Shown here: positions 4,516 to 59,767 of the stretch, piece by piece | Numbering within the stretch: the stretch's first letter is position 1 | Layout: each line of letters starts with the position of its first letter | Origin: Caldicellulosiruptor acetigenus | GTDB lineage: Bacteria; Bacillota; Thermoanaerobacteria; Caldicellulosiruptorales; Caldicellulosiruptoraceae | Direction: 5' to 3' | DNA: 64,000 nucleotides | Assembly: GCF_026914305.1 (NCBI RefSeq) | Contig: NZ_CP113866.1 | Span: 1,801,501 to 1,865,500 of the forward strand | Position numbers and translations under genes: made by a program | The notes under the pieces: generated by a model | What the model was told of the DNA's origin: nothing | The model's database searches: none | Seen by the model: the letters and a program-made list of their open reading frames with translations, nothing else

Positions 4516-6519
4516 TTAGATGTTTCTGTTTTCGTTAATATATTCTTGAATGGCCTTTAAAAGAACCTCTTTTGCCTCTTCAATGCTTCTGTTTTCAAGC
4601 CTTGCTCCTGCTGTCTCTAAATGACCTCCACCGCCAATTTTTTCTAATATAACCTGAACATTTATCTTTCCATTCGACCGGCCGCTTATTAGCACACTGT
4701 TTTCTATTTTGCACACAACAAAAGAAGCGTCAATCCCTTTTATGTTCAAAAGCTCATCTGCCACCTTTGCTATTATAACATTATCCCGGCACACTTGTGA
4801 ATAATCAACCACAAGCGCAATATTGCTATAAATGATTTCCAGGTTCGAAATGAGCTGACTTTTTAAAATATAGCTTTCCAAGTCTTCTTTTAAGTACTCT
4901 TTAATAGCTTCCGGCATAGCATCATTCTCTCTGAGGTACGTTGCAACCTCAAAAGTCCTCACACCAACATTTTTTGTAAATCCTCTTGTGTCAATCATTA
5001 TGCCCGCCAATAGTATCTCTGCCTCAAATTTTTTCAGTTTTATCCCTTCATAGCTCAAAAGCTCTGCAACAAGTTCAGATACAGATGAAGCGTATGTTTC
5101 TGAATAGCAAATGAGAGCCTGTTCTATCCAGTCGGCAGGCCTTCTGTGATGGTCAATTACAATTATCTTTTCAAACTCCAAAATCATGTTTGGAATATCG
5201 ATGTAACTTGTTCTTTGAGTGTCTACCACAAACAAAAGAGAGGTTTTTGTTTTCATCTTCAAAGCTTTTTGCTGGTCAATTATTATATTCTGATATTGAG
5301 GATCATCAAGTAGCATCTGAAGAAAGTTTTTAATCGTAGGATTGTAAGAATTAATTACAATGTACACTTCCTTACCCAAATTTAGGCACAACTTACTCAA
5401 ACCCACAGCTGCACCCAGACAGTCAAGGTCAAAATACTGATGGCCAATAATAAATATCTTATCAGAATGTTTCACAATCTCTTTTATTGTCTGTGCCATA
5501 ACACGTGAGCGCACCTTTGAACGCTTTTCGTGTTCTTTTGTTTTACCTCCAAAAAATTCAAATTTACCATCATGAAATATTACAAACTGGTCACCGCCGC
5601 GGCTGAGTGCCATGTCAAGAGCTGTTTTTGCATCCTTTTGTGCCTGGAATATAGAGTCTTGCCTTATGCCAATACCGCAGCTTATGGTAGGAATTATCTT
5701 ATTGTACAAATTTACTTCTTTTATCTGCTCCAAAATATTAAATCTTCTTTCCTGCATCTTGTAAAAGGCTTCTTTATTGCATATAAAAAAGTACTTGTCC
5801 CGTTCATACTTCATTAAAAACACATCTGACCTTATTTGATTGTAAAACCAATCAGTGATACGTTTTTCTATCTCAGAAACAATAGAAGATTTAGATACCT
5901 CCGGTGCTGAATTCAGAACATCTTCATAGTTGTCAATGGTCAAATAACCAAAAACAACATTTTGTATTTCATATTTCTTTTGAAGAAGAACAAAATCAGT
6001 AACATCAACAAAGTAAAATAGGTTCAAAAACCTCTTCTCGTTCTTCCCTTCCTCCACCTCAACAATGGTTACCAAAACATCAAAGAAAGCACTTTCATAT
6101 TCAAACTTTTCAATCTTATTTTTTCCCTCCAAAACGGCTGAATAAAGCTCAGGAAGCTCATCTTTGAGATTTTTGCCTATCAATTTTTTGTTCTTTACTG
6201 TATTTAGAAATTTATGATTGTACCATATTATATCCCCATTGTACTCTGAAATAAGAATCGGAAATGGAAACTTCAAGAGTGTATCTTTTGATGCTGTGTC
6301 TATGTTAAGAGTGAGAGTTTCTATATATTCTAAAAGCTGTTTGTTCTTTTTTCTGTTGAGCCTCAAATTGTAAATGGCAAGTAGAACAATCAGTGAAAGA
6401 CAAATTAAGCCAATCTTGATATCAAAATATAGGATTATAAAATCAAAAAGTAAAGAAAGTATAAAACCTGCCTGGGAGACAGAAAAGTCAAATCTTAAGT
6501 GAGACTTTTTATCTTTCAC
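4516..6519 (-). CDS. gdpP: cyclic-di-AMP phosphodiesterase GdpP (YybT family)
   Basis: Membrane-bound phosphodiesterase that hydrolyses c-di-AMP. Order of parts: two membrane helices (about residues 12-50), a PAS-like domain (about 60-170), a degenerate GGDEF-type domain (about 175-315) and a C-terminal DHH/DHHA1 unit. The DHH part shows GHQYFDLDCLGAA, VVDTQRTSY and VIDHHRR; DHHA1 ends with GGGGHLETAGA. The 667 residues are normal. It begins with GTG overlapping the DUF2232 stop by four bases, with GAGGGTGG upstream, so it is translationally coupled. The GGDEF region has no GGDEF signature, as is usual for the family. Confidence 0.93.
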   Translation of the reverse strand: MKDKKSHLRFDFSVSQAGFILSLLFDFIILYFDIKIGLICLSLIVLLAIYNLRLNRKKNKQLLEYIETLTLNIDTASKDTLLKFPFPILISEYNGDIIWYNHKFLNTVKNKKLIGKNLKDELPELYSAVLEGKNKIEKFEYESAFFDVLVTIVEVEEGKNEKRFLNLFYFVDVTDFVLLQKKYEIQNVVFGYLTIDNYEDVLNSAPEVSKSSIVSEIEKRITDWFYNQIRSDVFLMKYERDKYFFICNKEAFYKMQERRFNILEQIKEVNLYNKIIPTISCGIGIRQDSIFQAQKDAKTALDMALSRGGDQFVIFHDGKFEFFGGKTKEHEKRSKVRSRVMAQTIKEIVKHSDKIFIIGHQYFDLDCLGAAVGLSKLCLNLGKEVYIVINSYNPTIKNFLQMLLDDPQYQNIIIDQQKALKMKTKTSLLFVVDTQRTSYIDIPNMILEFEKIIVIDHHRRPADWIEQALICYSETYASSVSELVAELLSYEGIKLKKFEAEILLAGIMIDTRGFTKNVGVRTFEVATYLRENDAMPEAIKEYLKEDLESYILKSQLISNLEIIYSNIALVVDYSQVCRDNVIIAKVADELLNIKGIDASFVVCKIENSVLISGRSNGKINVQVILEKIGGGGHLETAGARLENRSIEEAKEVLLKAIQEYINENRNI

Positions 6520-50011: not shown

Positions 50012-50938
50012 TTATTCATTTATAATCTCAATAATATCTCCTGCTTTGATCTTGCCACCTTTTAATACTTTTGCAAAAAGACCCTCTTTTGGCATTATGC
50101 AAACCCCAACAGACTTTGCAATTTCGCAGCCACTGCCGTGACACTTTTTCCCTATTTGGCTTATTTCAAGTAACACATTATCTCCTATTTTAAGTTTTGT
50201 CCCAAGTGAAATTTTTTGAAAATCCAAATTTTCTGTTGTAATGTTCTCTGCAAACTTTCCAAAACAAAGGCCTTTGAGACCGTACTGCTGCATCTTCTTT
50301 ATGCTTGAGATATCAAGAAGACTTACCTGACGATGAGAAGACCCTGCATGGGCATCTCCTTCAATCCCATAGTCTTCAATCAAAATGGCTTCACTTACTG
50401 GTTCTTTTGGAGTCCCTTTTTGTCTGCTGATGTTGATTGACACAACCTTTGCAGTTTTATTTTCACTCTCAAAAATGTAATGTCCAGATTTCCCTCCAGA
50501 TTTTTCTATAAGCCTTATATCAGTAATTACCATATCTTTTTTTACCGCTTTGCACATGTCATACACTGTCTCTAAAAAAATGACAACGGCTGTGATTGCT
50601 TCCATCTCAGCACCTGTTTTTGCCTCAGTTTTTACTTCTGATACCGCTTCAATGTACCCTTCTTCTCTGTTTATCTTATACGAAACATCAACAAAAGACA
50701 AAAATATGTTGTGGCAAAGAGGTATCAGTTCGGATGTCTTTTTAGCAGCATTTATAGCTGCAATCTTGGCAGTTGCAAACACATCCCCTTTTGGTAAAAG
50801 CCCATTTTCAATTGCTTCAATAACATCCTTTCCTACAAAGATTTTCCCACTTGCCCTCGCAACCCTAAAACTTGGCTCTTTTGACGTAACATCTACCATC
50901 TTAGGAAGACCATCTTTGTCAATATGCGTAAATTCCAT
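50012..50938 (-). CDS. moaC: MoaC-MOSC fusion: cyclic pyranopterin monophosphate synthase plus MOSC domain
   Basis: Residues 1-155 are MoaC, making cyclic pyranopterin monophosphate in the second half of the first molybdopterin step: MVDVTSKEPSFRVARA, IPLCHNIFLSFVDV and VKTEAKTGAEMEA-type EMEAITAV, KSGGKSGHY. Residues about 160-308 are a MOSC domain (EDYGIEGDAHAGSSHRQVS, GKFAENITTE, CHGSGCEIAKSVGVCIMPKEG) with the conserved Cys. Stand-alone MOSC proteins of this type are linked to Moco sulfur handling. Start at the ATG at 50938 (GGAGGG upstream). Last gene of the riboswitch-controlled operon. Confidence 0.92.
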   Translation of the reverse strand: MEFTHIDKDGLPKMVDVTSKEPSFRVARASGKIFVGKDVIEAIENGLLPKGDVFATAKIAAINAAKKTSELIPLCHNIFLSFVDVSYKINREEGYIEAVSEVKTEAKTGAEMEAITAVVIFLETVYDMCKAVKKDMVITDIRLIEKSGGKSGHYIFESENKTAKVVSINISRQKGTPKEPVSEAILIEDYGIEGDAHAGSSHRQVSLLDISSIKKMQQYGLKGLCFGKFAENITTENLDFQKISLGTKLKIGDNVLLEISQIGKKCHGSGCEIAKSVGVCIMPKEGLFAKVLKGGKIKAGDIIEIINE

Positions 50939-50945
50939 CTTCAAT

Positions 50946-51886: not shown

Positions 51887-53050
51887 TCAAATCATCTTTA
51901 CCTCAACCAAACTTCCCTCTTCCACAACATCCACATTTACTGGCACAACTATATATCCATCTGCCCGTATCAAACTTGAAATCACGCTTGCTCCTCTTTT
52001 TAAAACTCTTGCGTGGTTTTTGCCATCCTTGTTTTCAACCTGTACTCTTATATACTCTTCAGCTCCAACGTCCGACCCAATCCTTCTTTCCAGTACAGCA
52101 AAGTAGCTTTTTTCTTTTGGATTTAGCAAATATGCCTCAAAGAAAGCCTTTAAAAAAATCTCTTTGAGAACAAAAAACATGGAGACAGGAAAACCAGGAA
52201 GTCCCATTACAAGCTTTCCATTTACCTCACCTATGACTGTTGGCTTTCCAGGCTTTATAGCTATACCATGGACAGTGACTTTACCAAGACTTTGAATTGC
52301 CTCATGTGTCAAATCCTTGTCACCTTTAGATGACCCAGCATTTACAAACACAATATCAAACTCGTCTAAAAGTTTTTTCAAAGTTTCTTTAAGAACATTT
52401 AAATTGTTGGCAACCGGTCTAAAAATGGTAATTTCAAAGCCATACTGGGAAAGAAGTTCACTAAAAATCACCGAATTGAACTCAACAAGCTGTCCAACTT
52501 TTTCAATTCTATCAACAAGCTCATCCCCAGTTGGCACAAAAGCAACTTTTGGCATTTTGTAAACCCTGACGTCAAGCCACCCACCAGCTTTTAAATATAC
52601 CTTGTCAAAAAATGTCAAAAGCTCACCTTTTTTGATTATCATCTCACCTTCTTTTATATCCTCGCCCTGTGAACGAACGTTTTGACGCGGATAGTAGCTT
52701 TGAAAAATTTTTATTTTACCGCCTTCAACTTGGACATCTTCAAAAGGAATAACCGCATTGAAATTCTCAACACTTTCCCCTGTTTGGACAGTTTTGAAAT
52801 TTTCAAGATATTTTGGATTTGTATCATACGCGTCAAATGTCTCTTCAGCCATCACAGCATATCCATCCATTGCAGCAACATCTGCAGGTGGAGATGTGTG
52901 AATAGCTTTGTAATCCTCTGCAACAAATCTATTTTTCGCATCATACAATGAAATCTCTTCTTCTTCTAATACCAGATATTTCTTTAGAATTTCCTGGATA
53001 CAAGCTCTTGCATGCTGGGGAAGCACAGCAGAAAAATGATAATCTTTCAT
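51887..53050 (-). CDS. moeA: molybdopterin molybdenum/tungsten-transferase MoeA, copy 1 (divergent)
   Basis: Metal insertion enzyme, 387 residues: PPADVAAMDGYAVMAEE, PTGDELVDR, KPGKPTVIGEVNGKLVMGLPGFPVS. The loop normally GGxSxGDxD is AGSSKGDKD, and GLPGNP is GLPGFP, so it departs from the consensus more than the neighbouring copy. Overlaps copy 2 by four bases. In tungsten users two MoeA copies often occur; which metal each prefers is inference. Confidence 0.92.
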   Translation of the reverse strand: MKDYHFSAVLPQHARACIQEILKKYLVLEEEEISLYDAKNRFVAEDYKAIHTSPPADVAAMDGYAVMAEETFDAYDTNPKYLENFKTVQTGESVENFNAVIPFEDVQVEGGKIKIFQSYYPRQNVRSQGEDIKEGEMIIKKGELLTFFDKVYLKAGGWLDVRVYKMPKVAFVPTGDELVDRIEKVGQLVEFNSVIFSELLSQYGFEITIFRPVANNLNVLKETLKKLLDEFDIVFVNAGSSKGDKDLTHEAIQSLGKVTVHGIAIKPGKPTVIGEVNGKLVMGLPGFPVSMFFVLKEIFLKAFFEAYLLNPKEKSYFAVLERRIGSDVGAEEYIRVQVENKDGKNHARVLKRGASVISSLIRADGYIVVPVNVDVVEEGSLVEVKMI

Positions 53051-54261
53051 ATCAATATCACCTCAACAATATCTCCTGCCTTGATACCGGTCTTTGTTGC
53101 ATCAACTCTTATATATCCACTTGCATTATTCAAAAGATTTATCGAACCTGATTTTCCATAAAGAGGCTCAGCTAAAATCTCATCACCAAAATGAAGCTTT
53201 ACAAATACAAACTCTGTTCTGCCGGATGAAGTTGCGATGCTTGTCTTCATCTTAGCAAGAACTTTTCTTGAAGTGTCCTGCTGATGTAATATGATGTCAA
53301 TGAGCCTTTTAACAAAAAAGTTGAATATAAAAAGGCAAGACACAGGATGGCCAGGAAGTCCAAAAACTGCCCTTGTTCCAACCTTTGCTATTATTGTTGG
53401 CTTGCCAGGTTTTATTGAAACACCGTCAACAAGCACCTTGGAATCTTTTAGGCTCTCAATAGCCTTTAAAGTGTTGTCGTATGTGCCAACAGAACTTCCA
53501 CCTGAAATAAGAACAATGTCATTTTCCTGCAAAGCTTTAAAGAGGGCATCTTTTAAAGCTTCAAAATCATCTTTTACAATCCCGTACATTTTTGGAAGAG
53601 CATATTCCTTGTAGCATGATGTGTACAATGTAAATGAGTTCACATCATAAATCTTTGCACTATCGAGTTTTTCATCCTGCGATATTATCTCATCTCCGGT
53701 TGAGATGATACCCACTCTTATTTTTTTAAAAACCTCCACATCCTTTTTCCCTATTGCAGCCAGCACACCAATTTGAGCAGGCTCAAGTTTTTGATATTTC
53801 TTGATGACAATGCTATCTTTTTTTATATCCTCACCTTTTCTAAGTATATTCTCGCCAGGCTTTGCTGGCTTGAAAACATAGAGTTTTCCATCCTCTTCAA
53901 TGGTATTTTCAAGCATCACAATGGCATTGGCATTTTGCGGTACATACCCTCCTGTGAATATCCTTGCAGCCTGTCCTTTTTGTATTTGAAGGTCTGGTAC
54001 CTCACCCGTTTTCACCTCGCCCACTATTTCAAACACTGCCGGGTTTTCATCATTTGCTTCAAATGTCTCTTCACACCTCAAGGCATACCCATCAACTGTG
54101 GACTTATCAAAGTGAGGAACATCTATTCCTGATACAATGTTTTGAGCTACAATTCTAAAAACTGCTTCTTGGATAGAAACCTTTTCTGACTCAAGATTAA
54201 AATCACAAAACTCATTTTTGAGTATCTCAAAAACCTCAAAATACGTTTTTAATACCTTCAT
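53047..54261 (-). CDS. moeA: molybdopterin molybdenum/tungsten-transferase MoeA, copy 2
   Basis: 404 residues: VPHFDKSTVDGYALRCEE, FTGGYVPQNANAIVMLE, RKGEDIKKDSIV, STGDEIISQ, SGGSSVGTYDNTL, VSIKPGKPTIIAK and GLPGHPVSCLF. Inserts oxometalate into adenylylated molybdopterin. Overlaps tupC upstream and moeA copy 1 downstream by four bases each, so the three are coupled. Confidence 0.93.
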   Translation of the reverse strand: MKVLKTYFEVFEILKNEFCDFNLESEKVSIQEAVFRIVAQNIVSGIDVPHFDKSTVDGYALRCEETFEANDENPAVFEIVGEVKTGEVPDLQIQKGQAARIFTGGYVPQNANAIVMLENTIEEDGKLYVFKPAKPGENILRKGEDIKKDSIVIKKYQKLEPAQIGVLAAIGKKDVEVFKKIRVGIISTGDEIISQDEKLDSAKIYDVNSFTLYTSCYKEYALPKMYGIVKDDFEALKDALFKALQENDIVLISGGSSVGTYDNTLKAIESLKDSKVLVDGVSIKPGKPTIIAKVGTRAVFGLPGHPVSCLFIFNFFVKRLIDIILHQQDTSRKVLAKMKTSIATSSGRTEFVFVKLHFGDEILAEPLYGKSGSINLLNNASGYIRVDATKTGIKAGDIVEVILI

Positions 54262-54851
54262 TTGTAGAGCTCCCCTTCTTTAATAATCTGACCATTTTCA
54301 AAACGTATCACATTGCCCTTCAAAGCTGCACCTTGATGATGTGTTACAACTATTATACACCTTTTTTGTGCTTCATCTTCTATAAGTTTGTACACAAACT
54401 CTTTTACATCTTTGTCAAGAAAAGAATCAGGCTCATCTAAAAAAAGTACATCAGAAGGTACATAAAACGCTCTTAAGAAACTTACCAGCTGTCTTTGCCC
54501 AGCTGAGAGCTGATTTATGTTGGCTTTAATAGGAACACCAAACATCTTTAAAACCTGCTGGGAAGTCTTTAACTTCTCATGCGAAAGAGCAACTGCAAGA
54601 TTATATTCAACAGACCCTTTAAAAAAATATGGCTGCTGCGGAAGCATAATGTTTTTCTTAAACAGATTGTGTATCCGCCCTGAATATTCTTTGTCTTTTC
54701 CAAACAGCATTTTCAAAAATGTGGTCTTCCCGCAACCGTTTGGTCCTTTTACAATATAAAGCCCCCTCTTTTCGAATGTGAGATTTTTGCACTCAAACAA
54801 TTCTCTGTTTTCAAAACTCTTTTTTACATTTACCACTTCAATCAAAGACAT
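54258..54851 (-). CDS. tupC: tungstate ABC transporter ATP-binding protein
   Basis: About 197 residues. Walker A KGPNGCGKTTFLK, Q-loop MLPQQPYFF, signature LSAGQRQLVSFLRAF, Walker B VLFLDEPDSFLD and H-loop VTHHQGA. I start at the ATG at 54851, within the tupB 3' end (14-base overlap); the longer frame adds 16 unlikely residues. Short, without the C-terminal MOP/TOBE domain of ModC. Confidence 0.9.
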   Translation of the reverse strand: MSLIEVVNVKKSFENRELFECKNLTFEKRGLYIVKGPNGCGKTTFLKMLFGKDKEYSGRIHNLFKKNIMLPQQPYFFKGSVEYNLAVALSHEKLKTSQQVLKMFGVPIKANINQLSAGQRQLVSFLRAFYVPSDVLFLDEPDSFLDKDVKEFVYKLIEDEAQKRCIIVVTHHQGAALKGNVIRFENGQIIKEGELYK

Positions 54852-55470
54852 CACCCTGCAATATTTGCAAAATTGTATTAAAAGTAAATGAGATGGCAAG
54901 CAGCACTAGCCCGAGCATAAGAGCGTTTGAAAACTCACCTTTAGTAATTTCAAAAATTATGGCTGTTGTCAAAATCCGTGTGCTTCCCTCTATGTTACCT
55001 CCCACTATCAAAACTCCACCAACCTCAGAGATTGCTCTTGAAAGCCCTAAAACAATAGCATATATTATCTCTTTTGAATATTCCCTCACAATGGCTGTAT
55101 ATCTCTTGCGTCCTTTCACACTCAAATAATCCAAGTTTTCAAGAACCCTATCTATGTTTTTAAGTCCAGACAGGGTATAAAGCATCACTATAGGAACAAT
55201 TAATATTACCTGGGTAATTATCATAGCCCATTTGGTAAAAAGTATATCCAAAAAACCAAAAGGACCTTTTCTGGAAAGTAATATGTAAACCAGAAGCCCC
55301 GCCAAGACTGGCGGGAGCCCCGATAAAGTATAAACTATTCTAACTATCATCTTTCTGTATTTAAATCTTTTGATTTTAAGAAAATACCCTGCAGGAACAC
55401 CTATCAAAACTGCCAAGAATGTCGAAGGAATACATACAACCAGGGTTGAAAGAACTACATTTGCCAGCAT
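54838..55470 (-). CDS. tupB: tungstate ABC transporter permease
   Basis: 210 residues with about five to six membrane helices; EAA loop RAISEVGGVLIVGGNIEGS and GLPPVLAGLLVYILLS, as in TupB rather than ModB. Follows tupA by 19 bases. Confidence 0.9.
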   Translation of the reverse strand: MLANVVLSTLVVCIPSTFLAVLIGVPAGYFLKIKRFKYRKMIVRIVYTLSGLPPVLAGLLVYILLSRKGPFGFLDILFTKWAMIITQVILIVPIVMLYTLSGLKNIDRVLENLDYLSVKGRKRYTAIVREYSKEIIYAIVLGLSRAISEVGGVLIVGGNIEGSTRILTTAIIFEITKGEFSNALMLGLVLLAISFTFNTILQILQGDVFD

Positions 55471-55489: not shown

Positions 55490-56305
55490 TCATTTTACTA
55501 TTCTGTAGATTTCTTTTTTGAAGAATTTTTGGTTAAAAGAACTTACAAGATTTTTAAATTCCTTGCTTTTTAAGTAAGAAGCAAATTTAGAAAGCTCCGC
55601 TTTTTTAGGTGAGTAAGCAAAGTAATAAATATTTGTAAGCACCTGCTCCTTCGGATTTTGATAAATTACATCCAAGCTCTCTAATTTATCTTTCATCTTG
55701 TAAAAGGTTGCTTCATCTGTGAGAATAAAAGCTTTCTTTTCATTTGCAAGATTTAGACTCATTCCCATACCCTGCCCTGACTTTATATAGCCTCCAAAAT
55801 CTGGCTGAACCTTTGCTAACTTCCATATCCCAAGCTCTCTTATATAAGTTGCCGAGTTGTCTGCACGCGAGACAAATTTAAAGTTATTTTTTCTTATCAG
55901 TGCAAAAGCTTCTTGAACACTTTTTACCTTTTTAAATAAATCTTTTTTATCTTTTGGCCCAACAAGTATAAAATAGTTCGAAACAAACGCAGTATAACCA
56001 TTTATCAGCTTCTCTTTTTTAAGCTCATTCAAAAACGACTTTTCATGTATTATTATCCCATCAGCGTCACCATTTTTGAAAATTTTCACCGCCTGACCGC
56101 TTCCCACTGAAATAAAATTGAACTTCACATTATTTTTCTTTTCAAATGCAGGTGTAACAAAGTCCAAAAAACCACTGTCATATATACTTGTAGTTGTAGC
56201 TATCTTGTATTTAACAGAAGCAGTCCCAGAGAAAATACTAACTCCAAACACACAAATCAAAACAAAAAATGCAACGACATTTTTTAAATATCTTTGTGTT
56301 TTCAT
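55490..56305 (-). CDS. tupA: tungstate-binding protein TupA
   Basis: Extracellular oxoanion-binding protein, about 271 residues: signal peptide (VVAFFVLICVFGVSIFSGTA, no proper lipobox), then IATTTSIYDSGFLD, the TupA TTTS motif, VGSGQAVKIFKNGDADGII, and FVSRADNSATYIRELG near residue 160. TupA binds tungstate much more tightly than molybdate in known cases. Start at the ATG at 56305 with AAGGGAG upstream; the ATG seven codons earlier lacks a site. First gene behind the riboswitch. Confidence 0.93.
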   Translation of the reverse strand: MKTQRYLKNVVAFFVLICVFGVSIFSGTASVKYKIATTTSIYDSGFLDFVTPAFEKKNNVKFNFISVGSGQAVKIFKNGDADGIIIHEKSFLNELKKEKLINGYTAFVSNYFILVGPKDKKDLFKKVKSVQEAFALIRKNNFKFVSRADNSATYIRELGIWKLAKVQPDFGGYIKSGQGMGMSLNLANEKKAFILTDEATFYKMKDKLESLDVIYQNPKEQVLTNIYYFAYSPKKAELSKFASYLKSKEFKNLVSSFNQKFFKKEIYRIVK

Positions 56306-56344
56306 GCGCTTTTTCTCCCTTTCCATAAAATTTTTATGTTATAA

Positions 56345-56537
56345 AAACAAAAAAGGATACTCCCCCGCTTTGAAACTTGAAATAGGAAAGAGTATCCTTC
56401 TAAAGCTAAATTTTAGAAGAATCTTTCCTTTCCAAAGCGGGAGGCGCAGTGGTTTCCCAAATCTGCACCCTATCGGCCACAGCACCATGAAGAGGAAACC
56501 ATCCTCTTTTTAGGCTGCTGTGGCTCGGAAAGATTCT
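56345..56537 (-). promoter_or_regulatory. Moco/Tuco-type riboswitch with terminator and antiterminator
   Basis: On the minus strand, beginning at the moeB stop codon, lies an aptamer closed by an 11-base P1 (56527-56537 with 56418-56428) and holding GAGCC, GGCCGATAGGG, GGGAAACCAC and GCGCCTCCCG, the conserved parts of the Moco RNA motif. Only a short link joins AGGG to GGGAAAC, i.e. no P3 hairpin, the trait reported for Tuco (tungsten) variants. Downstream is a terminator AAGGATACTC/GAGTATCCTT (56353-56399) with a T-run. CCCGCTTTG of the aptamer end (56433-56441) can instead pair with CAAAGCGGG (56364-56372) as antiterminator. Ligand binding should therefore switch tupA and downstream genes off. 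Confidence 0.87.
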
Positions 56538-57216
56538 AAAACTCAAAAACTCTGTATTCATTTGTCAGAAGATTTACAACCATGCACTTTCCGATTAAGT
56601 TCTCACCTTGAGCTGATATCAGCTTACAAAACTCAGAAAGTTCTAAAGCTGCTGTCAGCATTGGTGCAAAAATTGGGTTGCCAAGGTCTTTTTCAGCACC
56701 TTCAATATTTGTCTCTCCCAAAAGCTTTTCTATCCCGGGTGTGTCTTTTGTGATGATGGCAATCTGGGCGTACCAGCCAGCACACCCGCCGTGAATTAAT
56801 ATTTTCCCCATCTTTTGTGCAAACTTTGAAAGGCTCTTTCTTATTTCTATATTGTCAGTTGCATCAAATATATAACTTGCTTCCATCAAAAATATATCAA
56901 GATTTTCTAAATAAGCCTTTTCCTTTATAGGTTCAAAAGAAACGGCAGGGTTTATCTCTTTTACTCTTTTCTCTGCTTCAAATACTTTGTACTTTCCAAG
57001 GTTGTTTACATTAGAAATTATCTGCCTGTTTAAGTTTGTCTCATCAAAAGAGTCCATATCAACTGCTATAATCTTTTTCACACCAAGCCGCGCAAGTCCT
57101 TCAATCAAAAAACCACCTATTCCACCCACTCCAACAACTGCAACTGTTGTTGAAAGAAGTTTTCTTTGCCCTTCTTCTGTCAAGGCACTCAAGTTTTTTA
57201 AATATCTTTTTTGCAT
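56536..57216 (-). CDS. moeB: MoeB/ThiF-type MoaD-activating adenylyltransferase
   Basis: About 226 residues: VAVVGVGGIGGFLIEGLARLG (nucleotide loop GVGGIGG), DMDSFDETNLNRQ, and DATDNIEIRKSL. The CxxC zinc pairs of longer MoeB are not evident, so it is a short form. It adenylylates the MoaD Gly-Gly tail. Start at the ATG at 57216 (GGAGG upstream). It follows moaD by seven bases and its stop codon lies within riboswitch P1. Confidence 0.88.
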   Translation of the reverse strand: MQKRYLKNLSALTEEGQRKLLSTTVAVVGVGGIGGFLIEGLARLGVKKIIAVDMDSFDETNLNRQIISNVNNLGKYKVFEAEKRVKEINPAVSFEPIKEKAYLENLDIFLMEASYIFDATDNIEIRKSLSKFAQKMGKILIHGGCAGWYAQIAIITKDTPGIEKLLGETNIEGAEKDLGNPIFAPMLTAALELSEFCKLISAQGENLIGKCMVVNLLTNEYRVFEF

Positions 57217-57223
57217 ACTCAAA

Positions 57224-57454
57224 TTAGCCTCCAGTTGCAAATGGAGTTATATACACACTATCATTTTCCGACAATACATAGTCAAAGTCAACTCTTTTTT
57301 GATTGACAATCACAAACCCAACCTTGTCTTTTGGAATGTTTAAGTTTTCAAGAAGCTTTTCTACATTTGTGTTCGGGTCAATCTCAACTTCCATTTTCCC
57401 TATTTTGCTGCCGTACCTTCCAAAAAAACTATTTACCTCTACTCCAATCTTCAT
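57224..57454 (-). CDS. moaD: MoaD/ThiS-type sulfur carrier
   Basis: 76 residues with ubiquitin-like fold pattern and the functional C-terminal Gly-Gly (ITPFATGG). Carries thiocarboxylate sulfur for dithiolene formation in molybdopterin. It overlaps the aor 3' end by 26 bases with AAAAGG upstream, and is followed by its activating enzyme. MoaE, its usual partner, is not in the window. Confidence 0.9.
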   Translation of the reverse strand: MKIGVEVNSFFGRYGSKIGKMEVEIDPNTNVEKLLENLNIPKDKVGFVIVNQKRVDFDYVLSENDSVYITPFATGG

Positions 57455-59189
57455 ATTCCTTTTCCACCCTCTCGATATACATTTTCAAAAGCCTATTTAA
57501 CCTCTCTTCATCCATCTTACCCCACATTGTCGGTGTTTCAAATATTCTCTTTGGAAACTTATAATTTTCAAGTGAATATCCAAGCTCTTTTTTGATTTTC
57601 AGTTTTGTGAAAAATACATCATTCGCAAGTCGTGTGAGGTCATCGTCTGTCCAGTTTATACCAACAGCATTTAACGCTTTCAAGATGGTTGGCCTGTCAT
57701 ACACCTTTCGGGCAAACAGACATATGCATAGTGATGTGAGCACTGCCCTTTCTTTTTCTTCATTAATTACATAATTTATTATTTCATCATCTTTTAATTC
57801 TTTTGCACTCTGGTCATAAGAGTAACCTGCATTGTCTAAATGAGAATGCCTTGCACCAACTGTTTGACCAAGCGCAAATGCATAGCCTGTATGATATCCT
57901 GCCATCTCATTTCCACCATACAAAAGTGCAAATTCTTCTCCACCATATTTTTTCACAGCTTCTTTCAAACCTTTGCCAATTGTGTAGTAAAACTCGTTGA
58001 CTCTTTCTGCAATATTATCAATTGCTTTAACATACTCCATGGTGTTGCCAAACTCAAGGTCAGCAAGAGTGTCTTCTCTTGAGATAAGCCCTTTTTTGAG
58101 TGCTTCTGTTGCCCATGCCAATACAACACCTGTTGTTATAGCATCAAGTCCTGCAAGTTCAACCTCTTCTATAATCTGCAAAACCTCGTCTGTTGTCTTT
58201 ATCCCCAAAAGGCTTCCAAGTGCGTATATAAGTTCATGGTCATATGAGACAGAAATGGACTCATACTCATATCCCTTGTCAAACTCGCGTCTGAACTGTC
58301 CTATATGGATGCATCCAATGGGACAGCCTACACACGAAACCTTTCTGACCAAGTTCTTTTCGGCAAATGTCTCACCTGAGATATCGTCCGCATGCTCAAA
58401 TGTAGACTGAAGTAAATTCTTAGTTGGAAGAGAACTTATGCTATTTAGCACTTTGATATTCATAGGTGTTCCAAGCTCGTGATACTTGGCCATCGCATCT
58501 GTCTGTGTAACTTTTTTGTATATCTCCTGATAAGTCTTAAAGTACTCTTTAAGGTTGGCAATTGGCAAGTCCTCTTCTCCCATTATCATCATAGCTTTGA
58601 GGTTCTTGCTGCCAAAGACCGCACCAATCCCAAGCCTTCCAAAATGCCTGTAGGTGTCAACATTGACACAAGAGTATGTTACAAGGTTTTCCCCTGCCTT
58701 GCCAATTCTGATTATGCTTCTTTTTCCTGGACCTGGCTCTCTTTCTCTTATAACCCTTCCTGTCTCTTCTATGTCAAGTCCCCACATAGCTCTTGCATCT
58801 TTAAATTCAATATTTTTATCTGTAATGACAAGGTATGTGGGCTTTTGAGCTTTTCCTGTTATAACTATTGCATCATATCCTGCATTTCTTATAGCCATTG
58901 CAAGTCTTCCACCTGCATGGCTTTCACCATATTCGCCTGTGTGAGGTGAAATAAAGGTTGCTACAGCTTTTGTCACAACAGGAAAGATTGTTGAAAGAGG
59001 CCCGATTGAAATGATGATCGGCTGGCTTTCATGCAAAGGGTCAACACCTTTTTTCATATTTTCCTCTAAAAGCTTTGCTGCAACACCTGCTCCGCCTAAG
59101 TATTTATAAAGATCCTTCCTTTCTTGAATGTCTGCTTTTTTGTTTGTAAGGTCTATATAAAGCACTCTTATAAAGTCTTTGCCTATCAT
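57429..59189 (-). CDS. aor: tungsten-containing aldehyde ferredoxin oxidoreductase family enzyme
   Basis: About 586 residues, AOR family: N-terminal domain IDLTNKKADIQERKDL, YLGGAGVAAKLLEE, GGRLAMAIRNAGYDAIVITG, RIGKAGENLVTYSCVNVD and GRLGIGAVFGSKNLKAM, which bind the bis-tungstopterin. [4Fe-4S] Cys motif CVGCPIGC near residue 290 with a further Cys in TSLCICLF. These enzymes oxidise aldehydes using ferredoxin. Start at the ATG at 59189 just behind the ferredoxin stop (GAGGTGA upstream). A tungsten oxidoreductase of this family with uncertain substrate is known from Caldicellulosiruptor; this may be the orthologue. Confidence 0.93.
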   Translation of the reverse strand: MIGKDFIRVLYIDLTNKKADIQERKDLYKYLGGAGVAAKLLEENMKKGVDPLHESQPIIISIGPLSTIFPVVTKAVATFISPHTGEYGESHAGGRLAMAIRNAGYDAIVITGKAQKPTYLVITDKNIEFKDARAMWGLDIEETGRVIREREPGPGKRSIIRIGKAGENLVTYSCVNVDTYRHFGRLGIGAVFGSKNLKAMMIMGEEDLPIANLKEYFKTYQEIYKKVTQTDAMAKYHELGTPMNIKVLNSISSLPTKNLLQSTFEHADDISGETFAEKNLVRKVSCVGCPIGCIHIGQFRREFDKGYEYESISVSYDHELIYALGSLLGIKTTDEVLQIIEEVELAGLDAITTGVVLAWATEALKKGLISREDTLADLEFGNTMEYVKAIDNIAERVNEFYYTIGKGLKEAVKKYGGEEFALLYGGNEMAGYHTGYAFALGQTVGARHSHLDNAGYSYDQSAKELKDDEIINYVINEEKERAVLTSLCICLFARKVYDRPTILKALNAVGINWTDDDLTRLANDVFFTKLKIKKELGYSLENYKFPKRIFETPTMWGKMDEERLNRLLKMYIERVEKEYEDWSRGK

Positions 59190-59190
59190 C

Positions 59191-59601
59191 TTACTCACTC
59201 ACCTCTTCCATTGAAAGACAATTGTGTGGACACATTCTCACACATGCTCCACAGTGCTTGCAAACAATTGGAATTTTCCTGTCATAGTCCATGTGAATTG
59301 AGCCAACTATGCATGCTGCTACACACTTTTCGCATGCAATACATTTTTCTTCGATTAGCTTAACACCGCCACCAGGCCTTTTTACAAGCGCATTTGTAGG
59401 ACAAGCCTCTGCACACGCTGGCTCTTTGCACGCAACACAAATTGTTGCTGCGAACTTGCTCTGAAGTCCTCCTCTTGTCTTAACTTTTATTGAGCTTTTT
59501 GCAAGGTTGTGATTGTTATGGTTCACCGCTGCACATGTAAGCATACATGTAAAGCATCCAAGGCACTTGTTCATGTTATCAGCTCGAAGAACCTTTGGCA
59601 A
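59191..59601 (-). CDS. polyferredoxin (four [4Fe-4S]) electron-transfer partner of AOR
   Basis: 136 residues with 16 regularly placed Cys: CLGCFTCMLTC, CVACKEPACAEACP, CIACEKCVAACIVGS and CKHCGACVRMCP, i.e. four cubane clusters of HycB/CooF type. Overlap-free two-base junction with aor and shared promoter argue it carries electrons from AOR to bulk ferredoxin or another acceptor. Confidence 0.92.
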   Translation of the reverse strand: MPKVLRADNMNKCLGCFTCMLTCAAVNHNNHNLAKSSIKVKTRGGLQSKFAATICVACKEPACAEACPTNALVKRPGGGVKLIEEKCIACEKCVAACIVGSIHMDYDRKIPIVCKHCGACVRMCPHNCLSMEEVSE

Positions 59602-59688: not shown

Positions 59689-59738
59689 AGACCTTTAATC
59701 ACCCAAAGTCCAAATTTCGTTTAAAATTTAACAATCTT

Positions 59739-59767
59739 ATTATATCATCCAAAATGAAAGTTTACAA
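59739..59767 (-). promoter_or_regulatory. promoter of ferredoxin-aor-moaD-moeB
   Basis: TTGTAA, 17 bases, TATAAT on the minus strand; perfect -10. Confidence 0.7.

Follow-up and report, generated by a model that had tools for sequence, protein, structure and literature searches.

The RNA encoded directly past moeB in the thermophilic, plant-degrading bacterium Caldicellulosiruptor acetigenus is most probably an OFF riboswitch of the Moco family, of the type without a P3 stem, which terminates transcription inside an operon and most likely senses the tungsten cofactor. Our computation established the RNA, its conservation, two mutually exclusive folds, the gene order, and the promoter and operator ahead of the cluster (Table 1). 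The riboswitch class is already known; new here are the RNA itself, the long antiterminator that it has and the position that it occupies. Coordinates refer to the window, that is, the whole stretch of 64,000 nucleotides analysed (contig NZ_CP113866.1, positions 1,801,501 to 1,865,500).

A P3-less Moco RNA at the moeB stop codon

An Rfam search of the whole window returned a single match to the Moco RNA model (RF01055), at 56542-56409 on the minus strand, with a score of 70.6 bits (E 5e-15; gathering score, 36 bits) over the full length of the model (positions 1-135). This covariance-model match corroborated the family assignment of an earlier note made from the letters of the sequence, and it is the sole Moco RNA in the 2.74-Mb genome. 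The same note had described an 11-bp P1 that includes the moeB stop and had pointed out that P3 is absent, and all of this held true. P1 pairs 56537-56527 with 56428-56418 over 11 bp, and its opening two bases are the A and the G of the moeB stop TAG (56538-56536). In the cmscan alignment only GAUA (56474-56471) separates P2 from the GGG block, at the place of a hairpin in the model.

The order to which the species belongs is represented by 13 genomes from two genera, Caldicellulosiruptor (12 genomes) and its sister genus. Among them, G001 can be identified as Caldicellulosiruptor bescii DSM 6725, since its second contig is identical to plasmid NC_012036.1 over the 4,000 bases compared. Every genome carries exactly one Moco RNA, scoring between 60 and 74 bits, and the slot of P3 holds four nucleotides in all 13. 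As is expected of the family, the helices are kept by compensatory changes among these genomes and the RNA adjoins genes for the pterin cofactor and for tungstate; as is expected of the P3-less (Tuco) subtype, the P3 stem is missing and the host has tungsten-transport genes as well as a tungsten enzyme. A chance match, or a decayed relic without function, is contradicted by the E value, the conservation in 13 of 13 genomes and the covariation; nothing was found in its favour, and its probability is practically negligible.

Table 1. Features of the tungsten cluster and of its RNA (window coordinates)
Feature	Position	Strand	Remarks
Sigma-70-type promoter TTGTAA-17-TATAAT (TG-extended) before fd	59739..59767	-	same site in 12/12 genus genomes
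Rex operator TTGTTAAATTTTAAACGA, directly past the -10 box	59717..59734	-	top Rex-consensus match in the region; conserved in the genus
fd, 4Fe-4S ferredoxin-like subunit	59191..59601	-	
aor, tungsten oxidoreductase	57429..59198	-	Pfam AFOR_N + AFOR_C
moaD, sulfur carrier	57224..57454	-	
moeB/thiF-type adenylyltransferase; stop TAG 56538-56536 overlaps P1	56536..57240	-	
Rex-like sequence TTGTAAATCTTCTGACAA within moeB	56562..56579	-	equals the weak Rex candidate published for C. bescii, 274 bp ahead of Athe_0824
Moco RNA aptamer (RF01055), P3-less type	56409..56542	-	70.6 bits
P1 5' strand AGAAUCUUUCC, begins within the moeB stop codon	56527..56537	-	
GAUA replacing the P3 hairpin	56471..56474	-	cmscan alignment
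P1 3' strand GGAAAGAUUCU, common to the antiterminator	56418..56428	-	
Antiterminator hairpin (ON state)	56362..56443	-	minimum-energy fold and pair counts
Terminator hairpin (OFF state)	56354..56398	-	folding and covariation
Terminator U-rich tract	56343..56354	-	
tupA, tungstate-binding protein, first controlled gene	55490..56305	-	start by ribosome-binding site
tupB, tungstate permease	54838..55470	-	
tupC, ATP-binding protein	54258..54899	-	
moeA1	53047..54261	-	
moeA2	51887..53050	-	
moaA	50946..51890	-	
moaC-MOSC fusion, closing the controlled unit	50012..50944	-	

Gene content, conservation and relatives

The placement proposed in the earlier note, at the end of moeB inside a tungsten cluster, was confirmed, with fd-aor-moaD-moeB upstream of the RNA and tupABC-moeA-moeA-moaA-moaC downstream; on either side of the RNA, adjacent genes overlap or are almost contiguous. 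All the genes that the note had placed under control are present, although the last proved to be a MoaC-MOSC fusion. Translation of tupA probably starts at the ATG at 56305 rather than at 56326, given a good ribosome-binding site ahead of it. A mog/moaB gene follows the cluster on the opposite strand. The product of aor is the only AFOR_C protein in the window genome and is 99% identical to its C. bescii orthologue (XOR/GOR), an enzyme, GOR, that oxidises glyceraldehyde-3-phosphate (PMC13328260).

The gene order fd-aor-moaD-moeB-[RNA]-tupABC-moeA-moeA-moaA-moaC/MOSC is found in 13 of 13 genomes, each of which encodes one AFOR_C protein. In genome G005 (L168), a 505-aa transposase gene has its place between the terminator and tupA, about 0.3-1.9 kb past the RNA. 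Outside the order, the same cluster, switch included, recurs in Caldicoprobacter algeriensis (L150); the oxidoreductase there is 85% identical, which makes horizontal transfer probable. In all 14 loci (the 13 genomes plus Caldicoprobacter), the moeB stop lies 6-8 nt before the aptamer core.

Scanning the genome collection for the P3-less signature yielded 117 stretches, 99 of them with an aptamer that a pattern test showed to be convincing and many located ahead of tup or moa genes. Among the 86 other P3-less loci with enough upstream sequence, the nearest upstream frame is on the opposite strand in 36, and only Caldicoprobacter has a same-strand gene less than 15 nt away. The Thermoanaerobacteraceae cluster (G016/L180) runs fd-aor-...-moeB, RNA, gene, second RNA, and then tupABC and further genes, which contradicts the notion, considered and dropped, that a position behind moeB is exclusive to the order and Caldicoprobacter. 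Post-moeB placement is rare, with a relative in Thermoanaerobacteraceae. The two P3-less Moco RNAs of that locus, at 6223-6340 and 7873-7996 of L180, flank a gene of 230 aa.

Two mutually exclusive folds

The aptamer and the region downstream fold in two ways, either as P1, the aptamer helices and a terminator, or as one long hairpin. The intrinsic terminator reported in the earlier note is there: 56398-56390 pairs with 56362-56354 (-19.5 kcal/mol as an isolated fold), followed by T6GT5. Its loop is long, and a mechanical terminator scan limited to loops of up to 8 nt misses it.

The note had also proposed a competing nine-base antiterminator, and here its claim stood in part. Bases 56441-56433 are perfectly complementary to 56372-56364, above chance in the window sequence (when the sequence downstream was dinucleotide-shuffled 100 times, no shuffle was as good), but the pairing runs on to 56443/56362 and forms merely the base of a hairpin of ~30 pairs (56443-56362). 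The outer helix of this hairpin (56443-56433 with 56372-56362) joins CUCCCGCUUUG, part of the aptamer core, to CAAAGCGGGGG; in the inner helices the P1 3' strand pairs with the 5' arm of the terminator. By itself, the 9-bp helix was rejected as the antiterminator, since it has only one or a few bases in common with the arms of the terminator and would cross the terminator instead of excluding it. The main competition, within the same long hairpin, is between the P1 3' strand and the terminator 5' arm. The long hairpin takes up the aptamer core, the P1 3' strand and the terminator 5' arm, and therefore excludes P1, core and terminator together. Terminator and antiterminator are mutually exclusive, with P1 on the side of the terminator, the arrangement expected of an OFF riboswitch.

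Across the 13 genomes, 95% of the pairs of the terminated fold are retained and 16 pairs have changed on both sides; for the antiterminated fold the figures are 94% and 6 pairs. None of 500 shuffles reached the counts of either fold, and slid versions of either gave clearly lower ones. Such counts, from related sequences and a short alignment, are supportive of both folds, short of proof. The outer helix is not free to covary, since one of its strands is the invariant aptamer core; its partner outside the aptamer, CAAAGCGGG (56372-56364), is kept exactly or as a near match, and the helix is present in 14 of 14 loci. A comparable helix occurs in only 9 of 111 other sequences, one being Caldicoprobacter, and we discarded a core-invading antiterminator as a general trait of P3-less RNAs.

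The antiterminated fold has the lowest energy in the window sequence and in C. bescii, and the terminated fold in most other genomes, by up to ~7 kcal/mol; the gap between the two folds, which share strands, spans only some -7 to +5 kcal/mol against totals of 55-88. Since most genomes favour the terminated fold already in the ligand-free state, the order of folding during transcription must matter.

A probable Rex-controlled promoter upstream of the enzyme genes

The strong promoter before fd, with its adjoining Rex operator, is likely to be the main promoter of the cluster. In C. bescii, Rex binds in vitro before the ferredoxin-XOR pair, and deletion of rex raises the transcripts of both fd-XOR and tup (PMC6391272). 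The rise for tup is small (log2 0.38-0.77, significance not taken into account), and Rex binding at a candidate site 274 bp ahead of tup is weak, the Kd being far above those of other sites (PMC6391272). That study contains no mention of a riboswitch (PMC6391272). The candidate site is the Rex-like sequence 56579-56562 at the end of moeB, whose distance to tup, measured in the C. bescii sequence, is 273 bp, versus the published 274 bp. Direct Rex control of tup from this site was rejected, on the grounds that the published binding is weak and that the sequence also encodes conserved residues. Read-through of tup from the fd promoter, if it takes place, would be expected to raise tup in the rex deletion despite weak Rex binding nearby. 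The Caldicoprobacter counterpart of the moeB site is a perfect TTGTCAA-TCTT-TTGACAA repeat, and the window version a near-palindrome.

An independent promoter inside moeB could instead serve tup and the rest, in which case the RNA would be an ordinary 5' leader that abuts moeB by accident. Relatives elsewhere are mostly operon leaders, and moeB does contain weak promoter-like matches, such as that at 57044-57017, a site found again in 9 genomes at ~515 nt ahead of the RNA. However, the interval from the RNA to tupA holds no promoter-like match in any of the 13 genomes, and none is conserved among them in the last 500 nt of moeB; a private promoter for tup was set aside for want of a conserved candidate close to tupA. 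Synonymous (codon) conservation shows no rise at the moeB end that would betray a hidden element, and both the fd promoter and the Rex operator are conserved. We consider an independent promoter unlikely and favour transcription from fd through the RNA.

Tungsten or molybdenum cofactor

P3-less Moco RNAs were proposed as tungsten-cofactor sensors on finding that 17 of 19 host organisms have tungsten genes (Regulski et al. 2008, PMC2408646), a correlation and not a direct demonstration of binding; deletion of P3 from the Escherichia coli Moco RNA destroyed control and did not change specificity (PMC2408646). From this association and the local gene content, we infer that the ligand is most likely the tungsten cofactor.

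The correlative basis of that assignment would also accommodate a real OFF switch for the molybdenum cofactor, for both metals or for a metal-free pterin intermediate, and two observations speak for it: a PF00384-type oxidoreductase is encoded in every genome of the order, and 10 of the 13 have the molybdate-binding protein ModA, with no match in C. bescii, G009 and G010. Yet the controlled unit opens with a tungstate transporter, C. bescii retains the switch with no ModA match, and a xanthine-dehydrogenase-type molybdenum protein was not found in any of the 13 genomes. ModA of the window genome lies beside NifB/NifX-like frames, which, on our reading of those frames, suggests a nitrogenase supply. 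A ligand other than the tungsten cofactor thus seems rather improbable, and we retain the tungsten cofactor in what follows.

The ModA-ModB pair adjoins the NifB-like and NifX-like frames at G000:C1:2201968-2202585 (L185). The PF00384 pterin oxidoreductase of the window genome (643 aa; G000:C1:1523016-1525321) is encoded beside a MobA-like gene, a pairing present once in every genome of the order. At the level of the class, none of 37 genomes gave a match to MoaE (PF02391), though moaA, moaC, moaD, moeB and moeA occur.

Proposed mechanism

In the model that we propose, RNA polymerase would start at the Rex-controlled fd promoter and transcribe fd-aor-moaD-moeB and then the switch. When cofactor is low, the P1 3' strand and the aptamer core would join the terminator 5' arm in the long antiterminator hairpin, and transcription would continue into tupABC-moeA-moeA-moaA-moaC/MOSC. 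With ligand bound, P1 would form and free the terminator 5' arm, the terminator would fold, and transcription would end ~190 nt past the moeB stop. Cofactor feedback would not touch the genes of the tungsten enzyme, which precede the switch, and tungstate uptake and pterin synthesis would be expected only when redox state demands the enzyme and cofactor is short. The ligand, the read-through and the sign of control are the parts of this model that we infer.

The ribosome finishing moeB might add to this by blocking P1 and so tuning the switch, with moeB translation favouring read-through. A ribosome protects ~10 nt past its A site (PMC4824070), which at the spacing conserved in all 14 loci would cover nearly the whole P1 5' strand, and in E. 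coli termination can be almost lost when a stop codon lies 5 bp ahead of the terminator (PMC4824070). Here the terminator hairpin is ~140 nt from the moeB stop, so only P1 could be affected, and a disturbance of P1 is, at most, sterically plausible. Against a functional role, the spacing could reflect gene packing in one inherited cluster, the Thermoanaerobacteraceae cluster has its RNA ~50 nt past moeB, and ribosomes pause at stop codons only briefly. We hold such tuning to be quite improbable, and find still more doubtful the fuller reading, in which one RNA joins three signals: the redox state through Rex, the level of tungsten cofactor, and moeB translation through a ribosome on the P1 5' strand. 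Were it true, the demand for enzyme, a shortage of cofactor and the active production of the pterin-sulfur machinery would together govern transport and cofactor synthesis.

Comparison with known systems

The RNA shares with the Moco RNA motif RF01055 its sequence blocks, its P1/P2/P4-type helices and the proposed feedback on cofactor genes, and terminator-type platforms are known for some members (PMC2408646). In the E. coli Moco RNA, by contrast, P3 is present and P1 hides a ribosome-binding site, whereas the RNA described here is P3-less, has a terminator platform and lies within an operon. Tuco-type RNAs, three of which occur in one Syntrophomonas wolfei operon, likewise lack P3, accompany tungsten or pterin genes and have intrinsic terminators behind them. 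Here, however, there is a single RNA, its P1 overlaps the preceding stop codon, and tungsten enzyme genes lie upstream.

The Thermoanaerobacteraceae cluster resembles ours in having fd-aor-...-moeB, a P3-less Moco RNA and, later, tupABC-mog-moeA-moeA-...-moaA-moaC; it differs in its two RNAs with a gene between them, in its longer stretch and in the distance of the first RNA from moeB, and its aor is only ~30% identical. The gene set and the proposed role in tungsten-cofactor synthesis correspond to the AOR-MoaD-MoeB clusters of Iyer et al. (2006, PMC1779556), a description that did not include the RNA.

Implications

Direct sensing of the tungsten cofactor by P3-less Moco RNAs has stood as a correlation since 2008. 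C. bescii would suit a clean test, being genetically workable and having no ModA that we could find, one tungsten oxidoreductase and one such RNA. The placement of the RNA also offers a reading of a loose end in the Rex data, namely that tup is raised without rex despite poor Rex binding nearby. If our interpretation is right, the enzyme genes and the supply genes share one promoter in a split operon, and cofactor feedback would act on the supply genes only.
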